DNA from: a virus
DNA: 24,245 bases
Virus record (IMG/VR): IMGVR_UViG_3300046464_000255
Coordinates: 1-24,245 of that record
Reading direction: 5' to 3' (one strand)
The notes beneath the pieces were generated by a model that saw nothing but the letters and a program-made list of their open reading frames with translations, was not told the origin of the DNA and did not search any database. Position numbers and translations under genes: made by a program. This document shows, in pieces, positions 124 through 13,331 of this stretch; the stretch's first letter is position 1, and every line of letters starts with the position of its first letter.

Positions 124-1228
124 ATGCCTTGATAAAATCATCATCAAGTTGTTTGAAGACATATTCTGCTTCTTCAATAGATGATGCATGACCTTCAGAA
201 ATTAGTTTGTCAATAGCATACTCATAAGAATTATTTACACCACCAGTAACTCCATCTCTACTCTGACGGCTCCTATCATAAGTACCAAAACTAAATCTTT
301 CTTTTTTTCTTGATGGTTTTTTTACTTCAGGTGTTACTTGAGTTTGTGGCACTCTAGTTTGTGGTACTCTAGTTTCTGGTGCTGTATTTTTTGGTGCTGG
401 TCTCGCAAATTCTGGACCACCAACCTCATCACCTATTTTAATTTCAGATCCATCAGAAGTAAAGTTATCTTGATCTGCCTTTTTATCAGGATCAGTTTTT
501 CGTGGTTTTACTTCTGGAGTTTTTACTTCTGTAGGTTCTACTTTAGTTTCTGTGGGTTTTACTTCTGTAGGTTTTACTACAGGTACGTCACCCGCTCGAT
601 TATTAATTAAACCTACGCCTAAGCCAACACCAACACCTGTTGTAATCAACGTATTTTTTATTTTTGGACCAACTGGTGTTTTTGGTGTTACTGGTGCTGC
701 TGGTGGTGATGCTGCTGCAGGTGCAGGTGCTGCTACTGGTGTAGGTTCAGGTGTAGGTCGATAAGTAGAAGACCCAGGTCTTACTTGTGTTAGTTTATCC
801 GGTTGCCATTTCGTTGGATTTTTTTTTGCTGCGTTGGGTAATCTTTTTGCAAGTGTATTGTAGAGATTTCTTTGCGCTGGCGTGGGATTTGTCAGAGCAG
901 CAAGTTCCTTGATCTTAGCAGCATTCCTTGATCTTAGAGCAAGATTTCTAGTTATTGGGTTTGTTACAAACTTAGCAGCAGTCTTAAGTCCTTGCCAAGC
1001 TCTTGAACCATATTGGATAACCTTCAATGCACCTTCATTAAGTTCTATAAAATCTGGATCTTTTCTATTAATATCAACATATTCCAAAGATTCTAAAATA
1101 AATTCAACTTCTTCTTCATTATCATTAGACCAAAATTCTACAATCTCTTCATTCGTATAACCTGCTTTAAGCAACGAATATGATGTTTCATAAAATACTT
1201 TTTCATCTTCAGTAAGATTATAATACAT
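113..1228 (-). CDS. Late-expressed protein with Pro/Ala-rich and PTEVKPTE repeats, putative internal virion protein
   Basis: About 371 aa, no recognised enzyme. I place the start at the ATG at 1226-1228. A TTG at 1235-1237 would add three residues, and neither has a strong ribosome site. Visible parts: an acidic helical N-terminus (1-70); a segment with AWQGLK; a long Pro/Ala/Lys linker with PTE-VKPTE-type repeats and a RVPQT duplication; a glycine-rich hydrophobic stretch (GVGVGLGVGL) that could insert in a membrane; and a C-terminal helix pair beginning YEYAIDKLISEGHASSIEEA. An LNE-G site near residue 65 fits the gp21-type prohead protease rule (L/I-x-E). A CATAAATA box lies just upstream. 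Low-complexity linkers, late promoter and neighbourhood suggest a virion component; the function is unknown. Confidence 0.7.
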   Translation of the reverse strand: MYYNLTEDEKVFYETSYSLLKAGYTNEEIVEFWSNDNEEEVEFILESLEYVDINRKDPDFIELNEGALKVIQYGSRAWQGLKTAAKFVTNPITRNLALRSRNAAKIKELAALTNPTPAQRNLYNTLAKRLPNAAKKNPTKWQPDKLTQVRPGSSTYRPTPEPTPVAAPAPAAASPPAAPVTPKTPVGPKIKNTLITTGVGVGLGVGLINNRAGDVPVVKPTEVKPTETKVEPTEVKTPEVKPRKTDPDKKADQDNFTSDGSEIKIGDEVGGPEFARPAPKNTAPETRVPQTRVPQTQVTPEVKKPSRKKERFSFGTYDRSRQSRDGVTGGVNNSYEYAIDKLISEGHASSIEEAEYVFKQLDDDFIKAFIS

Positions 1229-1252
1229 TTCTGCCAATAAAACTTATCTTAT

Positions 1253-1260
1253 TATTTATG
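1253..1260 (-). promoter_or_regulatory. T4-type late promoter box (CATAAATA)
   Basis: The minus strand reads CATAAATA, one base off the T4 late consensus TATAAATA recognised by the gp55/gp33/gp45 transcription system. It lies 24 nt upstream of the ATG at 1228, which leaves a short leader. It falls in the gap just after the stop of the 141-aa gene. Confidence 0.5.
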
Positions 1261-1261
1261 A

Positions 1262-1687
1262 TTATTTTAGAACACATTTGTTTGTAGCTCGCACATACCT
1301 ATGAGTCTTGTAATTGCAATAAGGATTTCCTGTATCTGTTTTAGGTCCTGTAGGATCTTTAGGTTTAGGATCTTTAGGTTTAGGATCTTTAGGATCAGGA
1401 GTTGGTGTGCTAGATGAATTCTTATCTCTACTCTGTATATACTGATCTATTTTAGGACCAACAATTGGTATATTTCCAGTAAAATCTGATACTTGTTTCG
1501 ATTTACCCGCTTTCTCAAGTGCCCATGGAACTACTTGAGAAAGAGTCACACCCAATCCGGCACCGTATCCGAGACCCTTAGCAGTATTGCCTGCTATTTT
1601 TAAACCATTCCACGCTGCTCCCCAAAATTCATATAAATTATCTCTCGCTGTATTTGACTCAACAACAAATTGCTTATATGTTTTCAT
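1262..1687 (-). CDS. Putative internal capsid protein with T4-like capsid-targeting leader
   Basis: 141 aa. The first ten residues, MKTYKQFVVE, closely match the capsid-targeting sequence of the T4 internal proteins IPI and IPIII (MKTYQEFIAE), which is removed by the prohead protease gp21 after Glu10. Here the cut would fall between E10 and S11. The body has a helical segment (AAWNGLKIAG), a glycine-rich hydrophobic stretch and a VGPKI motif, all echoed in the downstream 371-aa protein. Then come KDPKPKDPKPKDP repeats and a short Cys-containing tail (NPYCNYKTHRYVRATNKC). An exact late box TATAAATA lies 18 nt upstream of the start. Packaging inside the head is inference from the leader; no enzyme domain is seen. 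Confidence 0.75.
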   Translation of the reverse strand: MKTYKQFVVESNTARDNLYEFWGAAWNGLKIAGNTAKGLGYGAGLGVTLSQVVPWALEKAGKSKQVSDFTGNIPIVGPKIDQYIQSRDKNSSSTPTPDPKDPKPKDPKPKDPTGPKTDTGNPYCNYKTHRYVRATNKCVLK

Positions 1688-1705
1688 ATCTACTATCTTT
1701 TTAAA

Positions 1706-1713
1706 TATTTATA
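1706..1713 (-). promoter_or_regulatory. T4-type late promoter (exact TATAAATA)
   Basis: An exact match to the T4 late octamer on the minus strand, in the short gap between the 65-aa ORF and the capsid-targeted protein, 18 nt before the ATG at 1687. It marks the switch from the RNR/primase run to late genes. Confidence 0.75.
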
Positions 1714-1714
1714 A

Positions 1715-1912
1715 TTACTCCTTGTATGCATCATACCCATTATAATCCCCAAACATAAAACCATCGGACAGGGCAGCCTCCCTGTACGATGCATATGCGT
1801 CTTTTAATTGTGTTTTCTTTGAAGGAGGAGGTGGAGTAAGAGGTTCTATCTCATCCATCTCCCTCCAAACTTCCTCAAAGTTGGAATCCCGAGAAGGTAT
1901 CTTTTTTGACAT
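1715..1912 (-). CDS. Hypothetical protein, 65 aa, overlapping the end of nrdB
   Basis: Starts MSKKIPSRDSNFEEVWREMD and ends GDYNGYDAYKE. The ATG at 1910-1912 has a strong ribosome site (GGAGGA, about 10 nt upstream). This fixes the start even though the frame stays open further upstream inside nrdB. The gene overlaps the nrdB 3' end by 38 bp in another frame, so it is probably translated by coupling. It is acidic with a short proline run and has no domain I recognise. It could be an accessory factor for ribonucleotide reduction by position, but nothing in the sequence shows this. Confidence 0.7.
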   Translation of the reverse strand: MSKKIPSRDSNFEEVWREMDEIEPLTPPPPSKKTQLKDAYASYREAALSDGFMFGDYNGYDAYKE

Positions 1913-3059
1913 CTTGCTTAATTCCTCCGACGATGTAAGACTCAACCTCAGTCTCCTGAGGAGCGACCTGAAGACCCTTCGACGAAATCCAATGTTCCGT
2001 CCAGGGGAGTGGGTTATTCTTTGCGGGTATGTCATAGATAGGTTTTAATCCAATTGCTTTCATTCTACGGTTGGCAATCCACTCAACATACTGCTGCAGC
2101 AGTTTATCATTGAGACCAATCATAGATCCATCTTTGAACAGATATTCTGCCCAGAGTTTTTCTTGGTTAACACAGTTATCAAAAGCACTGACTAACCACT
2201 TTTCTTCTTCTTTGAAGATCTTTGCCATATCAGGATCATCACCTTCTCTCCACTTCTTCAGAATATTCTGAGTAATGGCAAGATGCTGATTCTCATCTCT
2301 GGCAATCAGTGAGATGATTTTTGCACTTCCTTCCATAAGTTTGAGTTCGCCAAAAGCAAAACTGCACGCAAATGATACGTAAAAACGAATACCTTCAAGA
2401 ATATTAACGTTTGCAACTGCTCTGAAGAGTTTGCGCTTAAGTTCATATCTTGCATCTTGTGCATAGGTGATTCCTTCTAGAGCGTGTGACCATTGGTTAG
2501 AATTATCATAATGATGAGCAGCATTAATGAATTCATTATATGCCTGTGTAACTGTAGTAGCACGTTCTACAATACGGTTATCATTTAGAATATGATCAAA
2601 CACATCTGAGGGATCTGGATAGATGTTCTTAATGATATGTGTGTAAGAACGACTATGAATCATCTCCATGAATCCCCAGACCTCCATACACGCTTCCAAT
2701 TCAGGAAGAGAGCAATAAGGAATGAATGCCATACCAGGACCACGCCCCTGTACAGAATCCAACATAATCTGATACTTCAAATTAGAAGTAAAGATATGCT
2801 TTTGTTCTGGACGAAGAGTTTGATAGTCTGAACGATCTTTCTGGAGAGATACCTCTTCAGGTCTCCAGAAGTATCCTAATTGTTGTGTGGTGAGTTTATC
2901 AAAGATTGGATACTTATAAGAATCGTATCTTTGAATACCCAAAGGTTTACCAAAGAACATTGGTTGCTTTTTGGTATCATATTCTTCTGCATTAAAAACA
3001 GTCATGGATTCGACCACTGGTCTTTCCTCATTGTTCGTCTTAAATTTTACAAGACTCAC
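1875..3059 (-). CDS. nrdB: Ribonucleoside-diphosphate reductase small subunit (class Ia, R2)
   Basis: 394 aa, full length. It holds the diiron/tyrosyl-radical centre that activates NrdA. All expected ligands are visible by comparison with E. coli R2: D101, E132 and H135 in a MEMIHSRSYTH block, radical Tyr139 in the same block, E222 (LEGIRFYVSF), then E256 and H259 (LIARDENQHL). The C-terminus ends GFQL, like the R2 tail (NFQL) that docks on NrdA. Translation starts at a GTG (3057-3059) with a strong GAGGAGGAA-type ribosome site inside the last codons of nrdA, so nrdA and nrdB overlap by 20 bp and are coupled. The last codons overlap the following 65-aa ORF. Confidence 0.97.
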   Translation of the reverse strand: MSLVKFKTNNEERPVVESMTVFNAEEYDTKKQPMFFGKPLGIQRYDSYKYPIFDKLTTQQLGYFWRPEEVSLQKDRSDYQTLRPEQKHIFTSNLKYQIMLDSVQGRGPGMAFIPYCSLPELEACMEVWGFMEMIHSRSYTHIIKNIYPDPSDVFDHILNDNRIVERATTVTQAYNEFINAAHHYDNSNQWSHALEGITYAQDARYELKRKLFRAVANVNILEGIRFYVSFACSFAFGELKLMEGSAKIISLIARDENQHLAITQNILKKWREGDDPDMAKIFKEEEKWLVSAFDNCVNQEKLWAEYLFKDGSMIGLNDKLLQQYVEWIANRRMKAIGLKPIYDIPAKNNPLPWTEHWISSKGLQVAPQETEVESYIVGGIKQDVKKDTFSGFQL

Positions 3060-5340
3060 AGTCTTCCTCCTCGGCGTTTTCTAGTTGAGCGATTAATGTT
3101 TCAAGACTTTCTTTGGAATCATCTGTAATTTCATCAGTCTTGAAATCGTATGTGTTTTGATAATATGAAGTCTTCCAACCGTATTTGTATGTAGTTAGAA
3201 GATCTTGTGCCATTACTGAAACTGGAACTTCATTGTCTGGATAGTTCTCTGGATTATAACTCCAATTACCACTAATTGCTTGGTCAAAAAACTTTTGCAT
3301 TATAGCAACAATATTAATATACCCAGCGTTGCTAGGCATATCCCACAGAAGGGTATAACTATTTTTAAGAGTCGCGTATTGCGGAACAATCTGTTTGAGT
3401 GGTCCTTTTTTGCTTTTCTTAATGGACAGATATCCTCTAGGTGGTTCAATTCCATTTGTTGCGTTTGACACAACGGAACTGCTCTCCGATGGCATCTGAG
3501 CAGACAATGTTGAGTTCCTAACTCCGTGGGTAAGTACCCTTTGTCGAAGATTTTCCCAATCATAGTGAAGCTCATTTGGAATTATTTCATCCACATCATG
3601 TTTATATGTATCGATTGGAAGAATTCCATTTCCATACTTGGTTCGGTTACTGTATTCACAGGCACCTTTTTCTTCTGCCAAATCTACTGTAGCAGAAATT
3701 AGATAATATTGGAAGGACTCTGTAAGGTCGTGTACGAGTTTCCAGGCACCTGGATCACCGTATGATTGCCCGTGTTTGGCGAGGTAATGAGCAAGACCGA
3801 TGAAACCAACACCGAGAGATCTCCGCGCTCTAGTAGCGATTTCTGCTGCTCTGACGGGGTATCCTTGGAGATCAATGAGTTCATCCAAACTCCGAACAGC
3901 AAGATCACAAAGACTTTGAAGATCTTCCAGATCCCTAATTTTTCCAATATTAATAGCACTAAGTATGCAGAGAGCAATTTCTCCGTTTTCATCATCAATA
4001 TGTTGCAATGGTTTAGTAGGAAGAGTTATCTCTTGACAAAGATTACTCATCTCAACCTTATCAATAAAAGATGAGTGAGTATTGCAATGGTCGATATTCA
4101 TAATGTAGAGACGACCAGTCTCTGCTCGTTCTTTTAGAATATCTAAGAAAAGATCTTGTGCCCCGATAGTTTTTCTTGGAGTAAACTCATCTGATTCATA
4201 ACGTACATAGAGATCGTCAAATGTATCAGTACCAAAAGCATCATAAAGACCTGGTACGTCATGCGGTGAGAATAAGCTAATTTCTGCATTCTGGATGAAA
4301 CGTTCATAGAACAACTTAGATATTTGAATAGAATAATCTAATTTACGAACACGATTGTCCTCAGTTCCTTTATTATTTTTAAGAACTAGGATGTCTTCGA
4401 TTTCTTGGTGCCAGATAGGAAAGTGAACTGTAGCAGAACCACCTCTGATGCCGTTTTGAGTGCAGCATCGTACAGTTGATTCAAACTTTTTAAGGAAGGG
4501 GACCACGCCTGTGTGTTGTACCTCTCCACCTCTGATTTTAGCGTTGATGCCACGGATTCGACCTGCGTTGATGCCGATTCCTGCACGTTGTGCAACATAT
4601 TTACCAATAGCCATATCACTGCTAAAGATACTATCGAGGGTGTCATCAACATCAACGAGAACACAACTCGCAAATTGACGGAGAGGCGTTCGCACTCCTG
4701 CCATGATTGGCGTTGGGATGTTGATTTTGTGTCTTGAGATTGCGTCATAGTACTTCTTTACGTAATCGAGTCTGGTTTCTTTTGGATACTTTGCAAAGAT
4801 AGTTGCTGCAATCAACAAGTACATAAACTGGGGAGTTTCGTAAACAGAATTACTGCTCCTGTCTTGAACCAAGTACTTATCAACCACCTGACGTAAACCA
4901 GCGTAGGTGAACAAATAATCACGAGAATGATCAATCAAAGTTTGAAGTTTATCAAACTCATCGGTATCATATAAATCTAATATCTCAGAATCATATACGC
5001 CACGCTCAACGCAACGCTCAACGTGCTGTCTTACTGTAGGAACTTCGTGTAGACGACCATACAATTGCTTCCTGAGAGCGAACAGAAGCAACCTTGCTGC
5101 CACAAACTGATAGTTGGGATGTTCCAGATCAATCAAATCACTTGCAGAGCGAATCAAGATCTCCTGAATCTCTCCTGTAGTAATACCATCATAAAATTGA
5201 ATACCAGATTGCATTTCAACTTGAGATGCAGAAACACCTGCAAGGTCTACACACGCTTCCTCCACCATAACGTGGAGTTTATTTAAATCAAGAGGTTCAG
5301 TCTTTCCATCTCTTTTGACTACCTTTGTACCATTGCTCAT
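3040..5340 (-). CDS. nrdA: Ribonucleoside-diphosphate reductase large subunit (class Ia)
   Basis: 766 aa from the ATG at 5338-5340, which forms an ATGA overlap with the primase stop. A TTG at 5350-5352 would add four residues. It reduces NDPs to dNDPs with NrdB. Visible parts: an N-terminal ATP-cone (KVVKRDGKTEPLDLNKL); redox Cys226 (FASCVLVDVDDTLDSI); the N433/C435/E437 catalytic triad in SNLCQEI; the second redox Cys458 (ALCILSAINI); the radical-transfer pair Y726-Y727; and a mobile C-terminal tail ending CESCKI. The tail cysteines are spaced CxxC (761, 764), whereas the E. coli tail is CxxxxC. The protein reads as a close relative of proteobacterial NrdA along its whole length. Confidence 0.97.
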   Translation of the reverse strand: MSNGTKVVKRDGKTEPLDLNKLHVMVEEACVDLAGVSASQVEMQSGIQFYDGITTGEIQEILIRSASDLIDLEHPNYQFVAARLLLFALRKQLYGRLHEVPTVRQHVERCVERGVYDSEILDLYDTDEFDKLQTLIDHSRDYLFTYAGLRQVVDKYLVQDRSSNSVYETPQFMYLLIAATIFAKYPKETRLDYVKKYYDAISRHKINIPTPIMAGVRTPLRQFASCVLVDVDDTLDSIFSSDMAIGKYVAQRAGIGINAGRIRGINAKIRGGEVQHTGVVPFLKKFESTVRCCTQNGIRGGSATVHFPIWHQEIEDILVLKNNKGTEDNRVRKLDYSIQISKLFYERFIQNAEISLFSPHDVPGLYDAFGTDTFDDLYVRYESDEFTPRKTIGAQDLFLDILKERAETGRLYIMNIDHCNTHSSFIDKVEMSNLCQEITLPTKPLQHIDDENGEIALCILSAINIGKIRDLEDLQSLCDLAVRSLDELIDLQGYPVRAAEIATRARRSLGVGFIGLAHYLAKHGQSYGDPGAWKLVHDLTESFQYYLISATVDLAEEKGACEYSNRTKYGNGILPIDTYKHDVDEIIPNELHYDWENLRQRVLTHGVRNSTLSAQMPSESSSVVSNATNGIEPPRGYLSIKKSKKGPLKQIVPQYATLKNSYTLLWDMPSNAGYINIVAIMQKFFDQAISGNWSYNPENYPDNEVPVSVMAQDLLTTYKYGWKTSYYQNTYDFKTDEITDDSKESLETLIAQLENAEEEDCESCKI

Positions 5341-7619: not shown

Positions 7620-7820
7620 CTACTCTTCGCGGGCAGCAATTGCTTTCGTGACAACTTCTAAGAGTTGATCGTCCATTTCAGTCTTGGTCAACTTAACTGC
7701 CTTAGCAAGAATAACAAGACAGATCTCAACCATTTTCTCACCGAGTTCTTCATTTTCGGGAATCTTAGCAACAGCATCAGAGATAATCTTTGATGCTAGC
7801 GGAAGTAGGAATGCAAGCAT
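7620..7820 (-). CDS. Small hydrophobic/helical protein, 66 aa
   Basis: Begins MLAFLLPLASKIISDAVAKI, then an acidic turn, a second hydrophobic helix (MVEICLVILAKAVKL) and a helical C-terminus ending AAREE. It could be a peripheral or two-helix membrane protein. The opening resembles small 'M(L/I)..LLPLASK' proteins I recall from marine T4-like phages, of unknown role. No late octamer or clear ribosome site is visible upstream. A weak TATAGT-like element sits at about 7840, but I do not call it a promoter. Confidence 0.65.
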   Translation of the reverse strand: MLAFLLPLASKIISDAVAKIPENEELGEKMVEICLVILAKAVKLTKTEMDDQLLEVVTKAIAAREE

Positions 7821-7876
7821 TTAATTAATAGCAATTACACTATATAGCGTCTTAATGTTTTACTTGGAGAATCTCT

Positions 7877-9070
7877 TTAGCACTCAGAATCCATAACAGC
7901 ATTTGATGATGTCATAATTTTCATAGTCTCTTCGCCACTCTTTGGCATAACCATAGGATTCTTCATTCCCATCGCTCTCAACTTATTCTTAAGAAGTTCT
8001 CTATAAGTTCTTCTTTCGTTAGGAGTAGATTCTTCCTCTTTTTTATTTTCACCTTTTGGACACTCACAAGGATTTTTGCCACACTTAGGACACATTTCCT
8101 CAGAAATAACTTCTGCTTCCTTAATCATCTCAAAAAGACGCTTTCTTGCAGGAGAAACTTCTTCCTTACGAACATCATTAATTCTATTATTTGCAATATC
8201 AGCACCATCAATAGGCATTATCTGAACAGCAGGTTCCATACCTTTTGCAATTGGTTTGTAGTTATTGACTGCAACCGTTTTTTCTTTTGATGCAGCAACT
8301 TCACCAATAAACTCCTCACTCATACCTTTCTTCTTTGCCATCGCAGCACCAATTGCTTTGCGACGATTTAGAATATACTTATCAGACTTATCCTTATCAC
8401 CATCATTGTCCACATCACCATCTTCCTTTCCTACGGGATCCAGTTTTTTCTTTTCTTTAGGTTTTTCACCTTCTCTTTTAGTCCCTTCATAAGGATCACC
8501 ATGTTCAGTCATCTCAACTTTGAGACCCTTTGCTCTCAGTTCAGTGATCTTTTGGCGATTAGCATATCTAACATATGCCTTCTCAGTCTTAGGATCAAGA
8601 ACTCTTACCTTATACTTTCTATCTTCTGATTCTTCTAACTGAAGTTCATAAGAATTCTTCTTAGTATTTTCAACAAATACTTTGAAAAGAGCACCAGCAA
8701 CATCATTAGTTGCCCAACTATCTACGCCGTAATTTTCTTTAGCAACTTCTTTCTTTTCTCCACCACCAGAAGGAGAACCCTCACCTTTGGGAAAGAGTTT
8801 TGCACGGACTGCTGATTGTTCCTGAGATGTAAGATTACTATTCTGCATATACTGAGAGAATGCTGCTCTTAACTCGATACCTTCTCTTCTTGCACGATAA
8901 CGAATATCATAAACTGCTTGACGGATTTTCTTCTCAGATCCACCCTCACCACTATCATTACCACCACCAGATGGTTTATTACCAGATGGTTTAGCACCAC
9001 CACCAGATCTGGCGGTTACTGCAGGGGAATGATTTCTCGCAGGGAGTTCCTCAAATATCTTTTTAATCAT
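7877..9070 (-). CDS. Late 397-aa protein with EF-hand/dockerin-like loop and Cys cluster, putative virion-associated
   Basis: No enzyme fold recognised. After a Gly/Ser/Pro-rich N-terminus (about 20-45) comes a helical domain, then a predicted mixed domain around YELQLEESEDRKYKVRVLD. Next is a charged linker leading to DVDNDGDKDKSDKYILNRRK at about 230-250. This fits a 12-residue calcium loop (D at 1, 3, 5 and 12) followed by a dockerin-like helix. Toward the C-terminus is a small Cys cluster, CPKCGKNPCECPKG, which could bind zinc. Overlapping ATAAATA boxes upstream and no good ribosome site mark it as late. Similar acidic calcium-loop proteins occur in marine T4-like phages; packaging is inference. 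Confidence 0.75.
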   Translation of the reverse strand: MIKKIFEELPARNHSPAVTARSGGGAKPSGNKPSGGGNDSGEGGSEKKIRQAVYDIRYRARREGIELRAAFSQYMQNSNLTSQEQSAVRAKLFPKGEGSPSGGGEKKEVAKENYGVDSWATNDVAGALFKVFVENTKKNSYELQLEESEDRKYKVRVLDPKTEKAYVRYANRQKITELRAKGLKVEMTEHGDPYEGTKREGEKPKEKKKLDPVGKEDGDVDNDGDKDKSDKYILNRRKAIGAAMAKKKGMSEEFIGEVAASKEKTVAVNNYKPIAKGMEPAVQIMPIDGADIANNRINDVRKEEVSPARKRLFEMIKEAEVISEEMCPKCGKNPCECPKGENKKEEESTPNERRTYRELLKNKLRAMGMKNPMVMPKSGEETMKIMTSSNAVMDSEC

Positions 9071-9088
9071 CGGAAGAATTCTAGAATA

Positions 9089-10354
9089 CTATTTCTTTAT
9101 CTTATATTTATTTATGAATTGTCTTCCGCTAGACATTGCGCCAGGAACAAGGGATATAACATACTTCAGATGTGCATCAGTTCCCACTAAACGCTCATCA
9201 GGATTTACACCAGATTTAGTGGTACCGTTTACAATCTCTTCGTTCACTTCATTCACATCTTTAATCCAAGATTTGAACATAATATTATCTTCAGTAACAC
9301 AGATGAGATGATTTGCACCTCTACGAACAATTTTACCAATCAGTCCAGTATTCATATGTTCAACCAATTCACCAATTCTATAAATTGTCTTGCTAATATA
9401 ATTTTCACGAAGAGTTTGTTGATCAAATTTTGGTGCCATCTCCCAGATACCCCACTCTTCCTTAATACCCATTGATTGTCTTACAGTATCAAAGAGTTGT
9501 TTTGAATCTCTTTTTGACATTCCGTCAGGCATTGCAGATTTAAAAGTTTTATAGTCATTTTCAGATGCTGCTAGTCTTAATCTTGAAGCAGAAAGTCCTT
9601 CTACACCGTCAGCATCTGGATCTCTTTCGCCGGCAGAAATAACATCAATAGTATCAAATTGATATAGTTTGCCATTATAATTTCCTGAGAGTTTCTCAAA
9701 CTCTTTTACTCTATCTCCACCACCAACAATTCTTACATTAGCATAACCATCAGTATGTGCTTTCTTCAGTACATCAAAAATGGTTCGTGTATTTGCATCA
9801 TTTGAAATATTCTTACTATGCTGAGGGAACATTCCCCTCATAAATGCAACTTTAGCATCTGCTTCAAGTGGATTTTTCTTAGGATCATTTGAACGTGAAG
9901 GAACAATCATATAGTCTCCATCATCTCCTTTAGCAGATGCTGCAGCAGTATCCATCAACTGTTGATGACCTAAATGTGGTGGATTAAATCTACCAAAAGC
10001 AATAGTAAGAGTTCCTTTTGTTTTTTTAACCTTTGGTGGTCCTGCTTCTAAATCTGTAGGAGACTTTGTTTGCTCAGGTTTGGGTTCTGCCTTAACCTGC
10101 CCAGGTTCTTTCTGTGCTAAAGCAGGATCATTAAAATTAGGATTGGAAACGTTTTTTTCTAGATCAGTTTGGTCTGGATCACCCTTACCAATTTTTTGTC
10201 TCTTATTATAAAACTTTAGTCTACCCTTTTCAGTTTTCGCAACGAATTCGCCGGAAGTACGATCATACCATCCCCCATGCCCATCTCCCCGCAAACCTAG
10301 ACGAGTTGCTTGTTGTGCAGCAGATTCACTTAGAAATTGGAATAGACTTTTCAT
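9089..10354 (-). CDS. NMNAT/cytidylyltransferase-like enzyme with capsid-targeting-type leader
   Basis: 421 aa. Residues 1-10, MKSLFQFLSE followed by S, look like a T4 capsid-targeting leader with an ideal gp21 site (L-S-E / S). Residues about 15-52 form a small domain with HGGWYDR and KFYNKRQ. After a linker comes an HxGH-class nucleotidyltransferase core: AFGRFNPPHLGHQQLM (HLGH at 127-130), IVGGGDR at about 209, and GLSASRLR at about 253, in the place of the ISSTxxR motif of NMNAT-type enzymes. About 120 C-terminal residues add a small beta domain (GLIGKIVRRG) and a basic INKYKIKK end. Adenylyl or cytidylyl transfer is expected; the substrate is unknown. The stop of the upstream 71-aa gene overlaps the start (ATGA). 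Confidence 0.85.
   Translation of the reverse strand: MKSLFQFLSESAAQQATRLGLRGDGHGGWYDRTSGEFVAKTEKGRLKFYNKRQKIGKGDPDQTDLEKNVSNPNFNDPALAQKEPGQVKAEPKPEQTKSPTDLEAGPPKVKKTKGTLTIAFGRFNPPHLGHQQLMDTAAASAKGDDGDYMIVPSRSNDPKKNPLEADAKVAFMRGMFPQHSKNISNDANTRTIFDVLKKAHTDGYANVRIVGGGDRVKEFEKLSGNYNGKLYQFDTIDVISAGERDPDADGVEGLSASRLRLAASENDYKTFKSAMPDGMSKRDSKQLFDTVRQSMGIKEEWGIWEMAPKFDQQTLRENYISKTIYRIGELVEHMNTGLIGKIVRRGANHLICVTEDNIMFKSWIKDVNEVNEEIVNGTTKSGVNPDERLVGTDAHLKYVISLVPGAMSSGRQFINKYKIKK
9105..9116 (-). promoter_or_regulatory. Overlapping T4-type late boxes (CATAAATA/AATAAATA)
   Basis: The minus strand carries CATAAATA (9109-9116) overlapping AATAAATA (9105-9112), inside the last codons of the upstream nucleotidyltransferase gene and 34 nt before the ATG of the 397-aa gene. 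Each is one base from the T4 late consensus. Confidence 0.5.
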
Positions 10355-12124: not shown

Positions 12125-12306
12125 TTGAGATAGTCCTTCTCTTTTTGATATGGGACTACTTCTTTAGTGTATAGTTTCCATCCTTCGTGAAGTTCAGGAA
12201 CTAACCACTGATCAACCCGATAACAGTATTGCCAATTAACGGGTTGAATACAATTCATAACAACTACAGTCCAAAATGCTGTAGCATAATTAAGAATCGT
12301 GTACAT
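12115..12306 (-). CDS. Small membrane-anchored protein, 63 aa, ending inside the tRNA gene
   Basis: Starts MYTILNYATAFWTVVVMN at 12306 in a TAATG overlap with the DUF401-like gene, so it is probably translated by coupling. The N-terminus is one hydrophobic segment; the rest is soluble, with aromatic and charged residues (VDQWLVPELHEGWKLYTKEV). The TAG stop at 12115-12117 is made from tRNA bases 8-10, and the last codons overlap the tRNA acceptor strand. No family recognised. A partner role for the preceding membrane protein is plausible from position only. Confidence 0.7.
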   Translation of the reverse strand: MYTILNYATAFWTVVVMNCIQPVNWQYCYRVDQWLVPELHEGWKLYTKEVVPYQKEKDYLKGL

Positions 12307-13331
12307 TAGATTGCAAAAGTTATAATCGCTGCATATCCAATAAGTATGCCACACAGACCACCAATTACTTTATAATATTTCCTAATAGGAGTTCCAAAAT
12401 ATTGTTGTCCAATCATCAAACATTTATGTGCAGGTGACAATAGATATCCAGAATATTCAGTGCAGAGGAACCACACCAAGTATTGGGGACCGAAGATTGC
12501 TACCAGAGCAGAAGTCATACCAGCATACTTACCAGATGAACCCATAATCCAAGCAGCAACCATAGCAACAATTGAAGCGGGAATTAACATTTCAGGAGTT
12601 GCTGTTTTTAAGTATTCCATCACAGGACCTTTTATTTGCCCAACAACACCACTAAATGCAAGAACAATAGTAGCAATGATAGCAAACTTACCATCCAACC
12701 ACTTGCCCCACTTCCAATCTTTAAATACAATAGAGTAATAGATTGACATCCCAAGGAACCAAGGGAAGAAGAAGATTGCCCCACCTTTACCTGTATTCAA
12801 TAGAAGAATAATAGTAGCAATCAGTGGTGCCCATCCTGTAAGAGCACGACGCCAATTGAACTCACGAACATTATCTAAAATATTAACACTTTCAGGATCA
12901 ATCTTTGAGAAGATATACCACCAAGTATACGATAATGTAATGATAAGAGGAACGATTGTATATCCAAGAAATGTCGTATAGGATACTCCCATCACCGCCA
13001 TAGGTAAGACAACTGTCTTCTCTAGTGGTGACCACCAATAATAATGATGGGTAGACAAATAATCAATTACACCAAAATAAGAACGTTTTTTCTTTTCTGC
13101 TGGAGCAATAGCATCTAGGAGTGGTGCAGATAATGCCACACGTCCTGGAATAGGAAGTACGCCACCTAAAAGTGAGGTTAGAATAATAATAAGACGATTA
13201 TCACTAACATATCTTTTTATTAGTGAGTATACATCTTCAAGTGCATGATATTCACGAATGAACCCACCCAGGATCATAATACCAAAGATGTACCCCATGT
13301 AGAGTTCATTTTTAATTATAGATTCTATCAA
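12306..13331 (-). CDS. Multi-pass membrane protein, DUF401-like (putative transporter)
   Basis: About 341 aa with some eight to ten hydrophobic segments. The stretch LLGGVLPIPGRVALSAPLLD (about 54-73) matches, from memory, the signature of the DUF401 membrane family (LLPmPGGAlfSAPlvD). The following IDYLSTHHYYWWSPLEKT fits that family's second conserved block. These proteins sit in the ion-transporter-like fold group but have no proven substrate. Start: a TTG (13329-13331) overlapping the mazG stop, with GGTGA just upstream; the ATG at 13298 is the alternative and would still keep the first membrane segment. It lies within the replication run, so expression is likely early or middle, in the host inner membrane. 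Confidence 0.75.
   Translation of the reverse strand: MIESIIKNELYMGYIFGIMILGGFIREYHALEDVYSLIKRYVSDNRLIIILTSLLGGVLPIPGRVALSAPLLDAIAPAEKKKRSYFGVIDYLSTHHYYWWSPLEKTVVLPMAVMGVSYTTFLGYTIVPLIITLSYTWWYIFSKIDPESVNILDNVREFNWRRALTGWAPLIATIILLLNTGKGGAIFFFPWFLGMSIYYSIVFKDWKWGKWLDGKFAIIATIVLAFSGVVGQIKGPVMEYLKTATPEMLIPASIVAMVAAWIMGSSGKYAGMTSALVAIFGPQYLVWFLCTEYSGYLLSPAHKCLMIGQQYFGTPIRKYYKVIGGLCGILIGYAAIITFAI

Follow-up and report, generated by a model that had tools for sequence, protein, structure and literature searches.

The locus and its main gene

The window, that is the whole stretch of DNA analysed here, is a viral contig of 24.2 kb and a fragment. It contains a 421-aa open reading frame at 9089-10354, for which the first-pass annotation had given no strand; the frame exists as described and lies on the minus strand (ATG at 10354, stop codon at 9091-9089), and the plus-strand reading of the same interval is closed. 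The encoded protein starts with MKSLFQFLSESAAQQ. Its closest named relative is PSSM2_194 of the Prochlorococcus phage P-SSM2 (67% identity over the full 421 aa), a member of the T4-GC190 group of the Kyanoviridae, and a match to phrog_395 over residues 108-419 (E=1e-100) places the window protein in the same T4-GC190/phrog_395 family. Pfam PF01467 (CTP_transf_like) is matched by residues 118-221 with 30.1 bits, above the gathering cut-off of 21, which, together with the H127-L-G-H130 motif and fold support, upholds the earlier proposal of an HxGH nucleotidyltransferase core.

Upstream of this core (Table 1), a linker with low model confidence (pLDDT 37-50 for residues 51-100 in the AF2 model) and poor conservation in the alignment follows an N-terminal module. 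Downstream of it, residues 328-366 form five strands in the AF2 model with moderate confidence, and phrog_4808 matches residues 309-384; S-RIM44 and S-PM2 encode this C-terminal domain as a separate gene. The domain may be SH3/KOW-like, a label which reflects our reading of the strand pattern and not a database match.

Table 1. Features of the window discussed in the text (positions refer to the window)
Feature	Position	Strand	Basis
Leader-bearing nucleotidyltransferase, 421 aa, T4-GC190/phrog_395 family	9089..10354	-	ORF, Pfam, PHROG, P-SSM2 identity
Leader MKSLFQFLSE, residues 1-10; predicted prohead-protease cut E10/S11	10325..10354	-	L8-x-E10, conservation, profile
Module 'GDGHGGWYD...AKTEKG.LKFYN', residues 11-50	10205..10324	-	hmmsearch, AF2
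Variable, mostly disordered linker, residues 51-111	10022..10204	-	pLDDT, poor alignment conservation
(H/T)xGH nucleotidyltransferase core, residues 112-296	9467..10021	-	AF2, Foldseek
Catalytic motif H127-L-G-H130	9965..9976	-	(H/T)xGH in 254/254 homologues
Second motif S255-A-S-R-L-R260 (ISSTxxR equivalent)	9575..9592	-	S-x-[ST]-x-x-R in 254/254 homologues
Small all-beta C-terminal domain, residues 328-366	9257..9373	-	AF2 five strands, phrog_4808
Neighbouring cluster gene, 397 aa	7877..9070	-	phrog_3326/4359/38880 matches shared with S-SCSM1 gp92
66-aa protein, close to S-SCSM1 gp94; cluster synteny marker	7620..7820	-	Sequence comparison
Second leader-bearing gene, 141 aa, MKTYKQFVVE then S	1262..1687	-	Leader score

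The gene cluster in the window matches gp90-gp99 of S-SCSM1, where most genes upstream of the primase are annotated virion proteins; gp92 carries this annotation as well. A homologue of gp21 (Peptidase_S77) was found in all nine reference genomes tested, including P-SSM2, and none in the 24.2 kb of the window. A 341-aa DUF401 membrane-type protein is encoded at 12306-13331 on the minus strand, between 2OG oxygenase and MazG genes.

A lineage-specific leader

The protein begins with MKSLFQFLSE followed by S11, and the tripeptide L8-S9-E10 fits the L/I-x-E rule for cleavage by the prohead protease gp21 (PMC9026906). Among window-like loci 80/80 have the leader, as have 80/80 of the S-SSM5-like ones, so that the two clades together give 160/160; the sequences follow the consensus MK-x-F-x-x-F-[LI]-x-E or differ little from it. 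By eye, four of the 80 window-like leaders are one residue shorter and miss the L/I-x-E site (MKFFHQFQES three times, MKTFINFIES once). It is also found in cluster C phages (three sequences; scans that used the S-CREM2 or the S-CRM01 enzyme as a single query yielded one locus each) and in phage C48C1. The enzymes of S-CREM2, S-CRM01 and C48C1 lack the central stretch of the N-terminal part but retain the leader immediately before the core. The leader is better conserved than the linker downstream of it.

Within the enzyme family the leader is lineage-specific. It is absent from 80/80 Vellamovirus-like loci and from the homologues of S-PM2 (a DUF6267 fusion), MED4-213 and the jumbo phages 121Q, PHA46 and Deifobo. 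An absence of the leader from the whole family, which had been named as a finding that would speak against packaging, is not what we observed, though several lineages are leaderless. In a tree of the enzyme core the leader status requires two changes, with the placement of long branches being unsure. All four orthologues detected in virions by mass spectrometry (MS) that we examined carry a leader (S-SM1 MKKFSAFLNE, S-SCSM1 MKSFLQFLKE, S-CREM2 MKNFSSFLTE, S-SZBM1 MRFRQFIIE). Residues 1-10 of the window protein are, with high probability, a capsid-targeting leader. No discussion of capsid-targeting sequences in cyanophages was found in the literature searched, the coverage of which was incomplete.

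Two annotated start sites in related phages deserve mention. The annotated start of the C48C1 cytidyltransferase lies too far downstream, within the (H/T)xGH region (position 3956 of the stretch examined), and an upstream GTG start gives the leader MIKNFSQYLLE back. Similarly, the annotated start of S-RIM44 gp100 removes the catalytic GRFQPPTTGH, which an upstream ATG restores (position 4058 of the stretch examined).

Leader scores and virion proteins

A position profile trained solely on 30 distinct leaders of the window clade gives the window gene, itself within the training set, a score of 24.3, and homologues outside the training set scores of 23.0 (S-SCSM1), 18.5 (S-CREM2), 15.7 (S-SM1) and 12.5 (S-SZBM1). 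A score of at least 9 is reached by 1.0% of 401 annotated S-SCSM1 and S-CREM2 genes without a virion report. The profile was also applied to T4 at 1-45 kb and 44.5-88 kb. In the latter region, gp2, IPIII, IPII and IPI rank 1 to 4 among 506 candidate starts; in the former, which contains no annotated internal proteins, the best match is an internal start. The leader proposed in the first-pass annotation therefore stands, being conserved in every locus of the two clades and described by a profile that recovers the T4 internal proteins. The N-terminus of T4 gp2, the DNA end protector (MAIFQIINES; position 32386 of the stretch examined), outscores these internal proteins.

In S-CREM2 (219 genes, 52 of them with products in virions) the five highest leader scores all belong to virion proteins detected by MS, namely the nucleotidyltransferase, the APH/ChoK-like kinase gp14, gp13, the SAM lyase gp6 and gp136. 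Leaving out the nucleotidyltransferase, the next-best four are all in virions (p=0.0027), although gp12 to gp14 adjoin each other and the top-scoring genes are thus not fully independent. In S-SCSM1 the nucleotidyltransferase ranks first among 282 genes and gp30, which has no virion report, second; with one of two leader genes in virions, the association is not replicated in this phage, which is merely consistent with it. With the two phages combined, a score of 11 is reached by 6 of 100 virion genes and by 2 of the 401 others (p=0.001), a result that rests on S-CREM2. Both T4 internal proteins and other virion enzymes are thus recovered by a profile made without them.

The residue 11-50 module and other cargo-like genes

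The AF2 model predicts a helix and four strands for residues 11-50 (pLDDT about 80-85). An HMM of this segment matches the S-CREM2 kinase gp14 (two copies) and S-CREM2 gp12, both detected by MS in virions (PMC10665884), and in addition S-CRM01 g128, the S-CRM01 kinase g130 and ACG-2014f gp183. Judged from these matches, residues 11-50 are a separate domain that recurs in a kinase and an HNH-like protein of virions, which suggests a candidate cargo adaptor.

S-CREM2 gp12 (7704-10313 of the stretch examined) was published as a CRISPR-Cas9 nuclease; it has no Pfam match and a match to phrog_3561. With an HNH-like motif read by eye, it resembles an HNH-type protein that bears the leader and the module, and not Cas9. 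In S-CRM01, g131, g130, g129 and g127 start with leaders, whereas the leader of g128 follows an N-terminal extension; the genes g131-g127 (702-5280 of the stretch examined) form an apparent head-cargo operon that includes a kinase and the nucleotidyltransferase.

The window contains a second gene of this kind. The leader of the 141-aa gene has the second-best score of 427 starts in the window, and a perfect late-promoter box (TATAAATA) is located at 1706-1713 on the same strand. The protein has no PHROG match; by its T4-IP-like leader, the gene is likely a second head-cargo gene.

A broader, more speculative reading is that the Kyanoviridae possess a portable head-loading system, in which a T4-type leader, often combined with the 40-residue adaptor, would be attached to unrelated enzymes and would serve to inject a set of host-manipulating or anti-defence proteins. 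The cargo would comprise the nucleotidyltransferase, the kinase and the HNH-like protein, the SAM lyase with the leader alone, and possibly NAD repair directed against NAD-depleting defences. We regard this reading as conceivable and, at present, doubtful.

Fold, motifs and possible substrate of the enzyme

The AF2 model, calculated from 45 homologues, is of high confidence for residues about 112-296 (pLDDT mostly 80-95). In Foldseek searches of the PDB, NadD, the NaMN adenylyltransferase, came out on top (E=4.9e-6), with PPAT and FAD synthetase fitting about equally well. At the sequence level, a phmmer search of PDB sequences with the single protein returned nothing, and the family profile gave only weak matches. 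Both (H/T)xGH and SxSxxR motifs are present in 254/254 collected homologues. The GRFxPPHxGH and KNPL segments presumably recall NadM.

Fold and motifs favour an adenylyltransferase over a cytidylyltransferase as the predicted activity. Of the identity proposed in the first-pass annotation (NMNAT or cytidylyltransferase), the NMNAT side is thus favoured, but no NMNAT equivalog cut-off is reached in NCBIfam (TIGR01526, 25.3 bits versus 341; TIGR00482, 19.0 versus 112). NMN or NaMN as the substrate is therefore a tentative assignment, which we hold at somewhat below even chances.

The alternative that survives best is a packaged enzyme that acts on something other than NMN, either as another adenylyltransferase (for FMN, for phosphopantetheine, or acid- or RNA-activating like TmcAL) or on nucleic acids together with the adjacent DUF6267 protein. 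PPAT has the highest target-normalised TM-score of the Foldseek matches (0.71), FAD synthetase is among the best fold matches, and the best PDB sequence match of the family profile, MJ0951/UPF0348 (E=1.8e-4), is not an NMNAT. Moreover, DUF6267, which has nucleotidyltransferase-like motifs, is encoded directly upstream of the enzyme in 74/80 S-SSM5-like and 71/80 Vellamovirus-like loci and is fused to it in S-PM2. However, it is adjacent to the gene in 0/80 window-like loci, Foldseek gives no significant match in the PDB for the structure predicted for it (RNA ligase at E=0.12), and the best NCBIfam matches of several family members are TIGR00482 and TIGR01526, the NaMN/NMN adenylyltransferases, though far below cut-off. 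Taken together, we consider this alternative rather unlikely. In DUF6267 itself (1781-2977 of one stretch and 126 similar loci), KWDG/KxDG, EGxV and K motifs recall ligase-type covalent nucleotidyltransferases; as Foldseek did not support this suggestion, a ligase function is not relied on here.

Virion association and proposed mechanism

Virion association of this protein family has been known for some time. The T4-GC190 putative citidylyltransferase was found in purified S-SM1 virions by Sullivan and colleagues in 2010 (PMC3037559), S-SCSM1 ORF91 was found in virions with a proposed effect on host NAD (PMC9602691), and S-SZBM1_140 (PMC9146016) and S-CREM2 ORF154 (PMC10665884) were detected as well. 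S-SCSM1 ORF91 and the window protein share 49% identity. An NMNAT is reportedly present also in S-CBWM1 virions. The packaging proposed in the first-pass annotation hence agrees with leader-bearing orthologues in the virions of four T4-like cyanophages, but it is not new; both virion association and the NAD idea are already published, and the earlier interpretation, which is right for the most part, was largely anticipated. The present analysis contributes a proposed mechanism of entry (leader plus adaptor), the limits of this mechanism and a statistical test made independently.

We propose that the gene product travels as cargo in the head of a T4-like cyanophage, as a leader-packaged, cleaved and injected adenylyltransferase, and as a whole this is the reading we favour, if with some reserve. 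Residues 1-10 would bind the nascent prohead core as a capsid-targeting sequence, and a gp21-type protease would cut after Glu10, leaving in the head a protein whose first residue is Ser11. The processed protein would then enter the host with the DNA. Its (H/T)xGH nucleotidyltransferase core would be catalytically intact and most likely work as an NMN/NaMN-type adenylyltransferase, acting on an NAD-type cofactor pool, or a related one, already in the first minute after infection. Leader, conservation, catalytic motifs, fold and shared module are established here, and virion presence was established by others for orthologues. MS detection does not place a protein inside the head; location there is inferred, as are cleavage, ejection and substrate. 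Location in the head is probable, and injection into the host fairly so.

Alternatively, the protein might be a structural or scaffolding component of the prohead core, its nucleotidyltransferase activity being exerted late, during assembly, or being irrelevant. Nearly all S-SCSM1 counterparts of the cluster genes are annotated virion proteins, and the T4 internal proteins, which have similar leaders, are parts of the core that are not essential (PMC9026906). Yet both catalytic motifs are kept in every homologue, even in leaderless stand-alone copies of jumbo phages, which points to a selected enzyme activity; we hold this alternative to be improbable. Still less probable is that the protein is not packaged at all, and that an abundant intracellular enzyme with an incidental likeness to a leader co-purified with the particles. 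Carry-over into particle preparations was raised by the authors of both the S-CREM2 (PMC10665884) and S-SCSM1 (PMC9602691) studies, the MS signal in virions is low (three unique peptides for S-CREM2 and two for S-SZBM1), and the leaderless lineages indicate that the enzyme can work without packaging. On the other hand, the protein was detected in four phages by different research groups, the detection of unrelated S-CREM2 enzymes in virions is predicted by their leader score, and conservation of the leader exceeds that of the following linker. Finally, a cytidylyltransferase, for glycerol-3-phosphate or another substrate, is what many cyanophage records state and what the generic Pfam name CTP_transf_like suggests. 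Such an activity is very improbable, and this function and cell-wall roles were rejected on fold and family matches, as no cytidylyltransferase is among the 50 PDB fold matches listed, which are mostly adenylyltransferases, and the NCBIfam matches are adenylyltransferases.

Packaging and injection of the enzyme would matter because the gene belongs to the core set of those marine myoviruses that are most abundant, and because the virion association of its product has since 2010 lacked an explanation for entry or proof against carry-over. A conserved T4-type leader provides a concrete and testable packaging mechanism and predicts a Ser11 N-terminus in virions. In addition, the leader profile allows likely injected proteins to be listed from cyanophage sequences, among them kinases and SAM lyases that have been detected in particles. 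Should NAD be its product, the enzyme would provide a step of NAD synthesis that is present ahead of any phage gene expression.

Comparison with known systems

The nearest counterparts are the T4-GC190 members PSSM2_194, S-SM1 SSM1_190, S-SCSM1 ORF91, S-SZBM1_140 and S-CREM2 ORF154, which share family and leader with the window protein and show no important difference from it; the window copy, which is encoded on an uncultured IMG/VR contig, differs from them in sequence only. The S-CREM2 kinase gp14, SAM lyase gp6 and HNH-like gp12 have a leader like that of the window protein, and gp14 and gp12 also the same N-terminal module, whereas their catalytic domains differ. With NadD, NadM and NadR the window enzyme shares the fold and the (H/T)xGH and SxSxxR motifs, but it has extra N- and C-terminal phage domains and remains below the equivalog cut-offs. 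If the substrate is NMN, its logic would be comparable to that of NARP1 (Adps/Namat) and NARP2, by which NAD is restored during infection; in that account (PMC12774641) these pathways are not described as head cargo, and no partner enzyme is recognisable within the window.

The leaders of the T4 internal proteins IPI, IPII and IPIII (MKTYQEFIAE in IPIII and IPII) agree with that of the window protein in length and pattern and have an L/I-x-E site, and gp21 is encoded by genome relatives of the window. The internal proteins are small, basic and non-catalytic, in contrast to the multidomain enzyme considered here, and their packaging, cleavage and injection are proven, while those of the window protein are proposed. 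An enzyme carried in the T4 head is the ADP-ribosyltransferase Alt, which is thought to act on the host at once (PMC9026906). The folds of Alt and the window enzyme are unrelated, and while Alt uses NAD, the window enzyme might make it.
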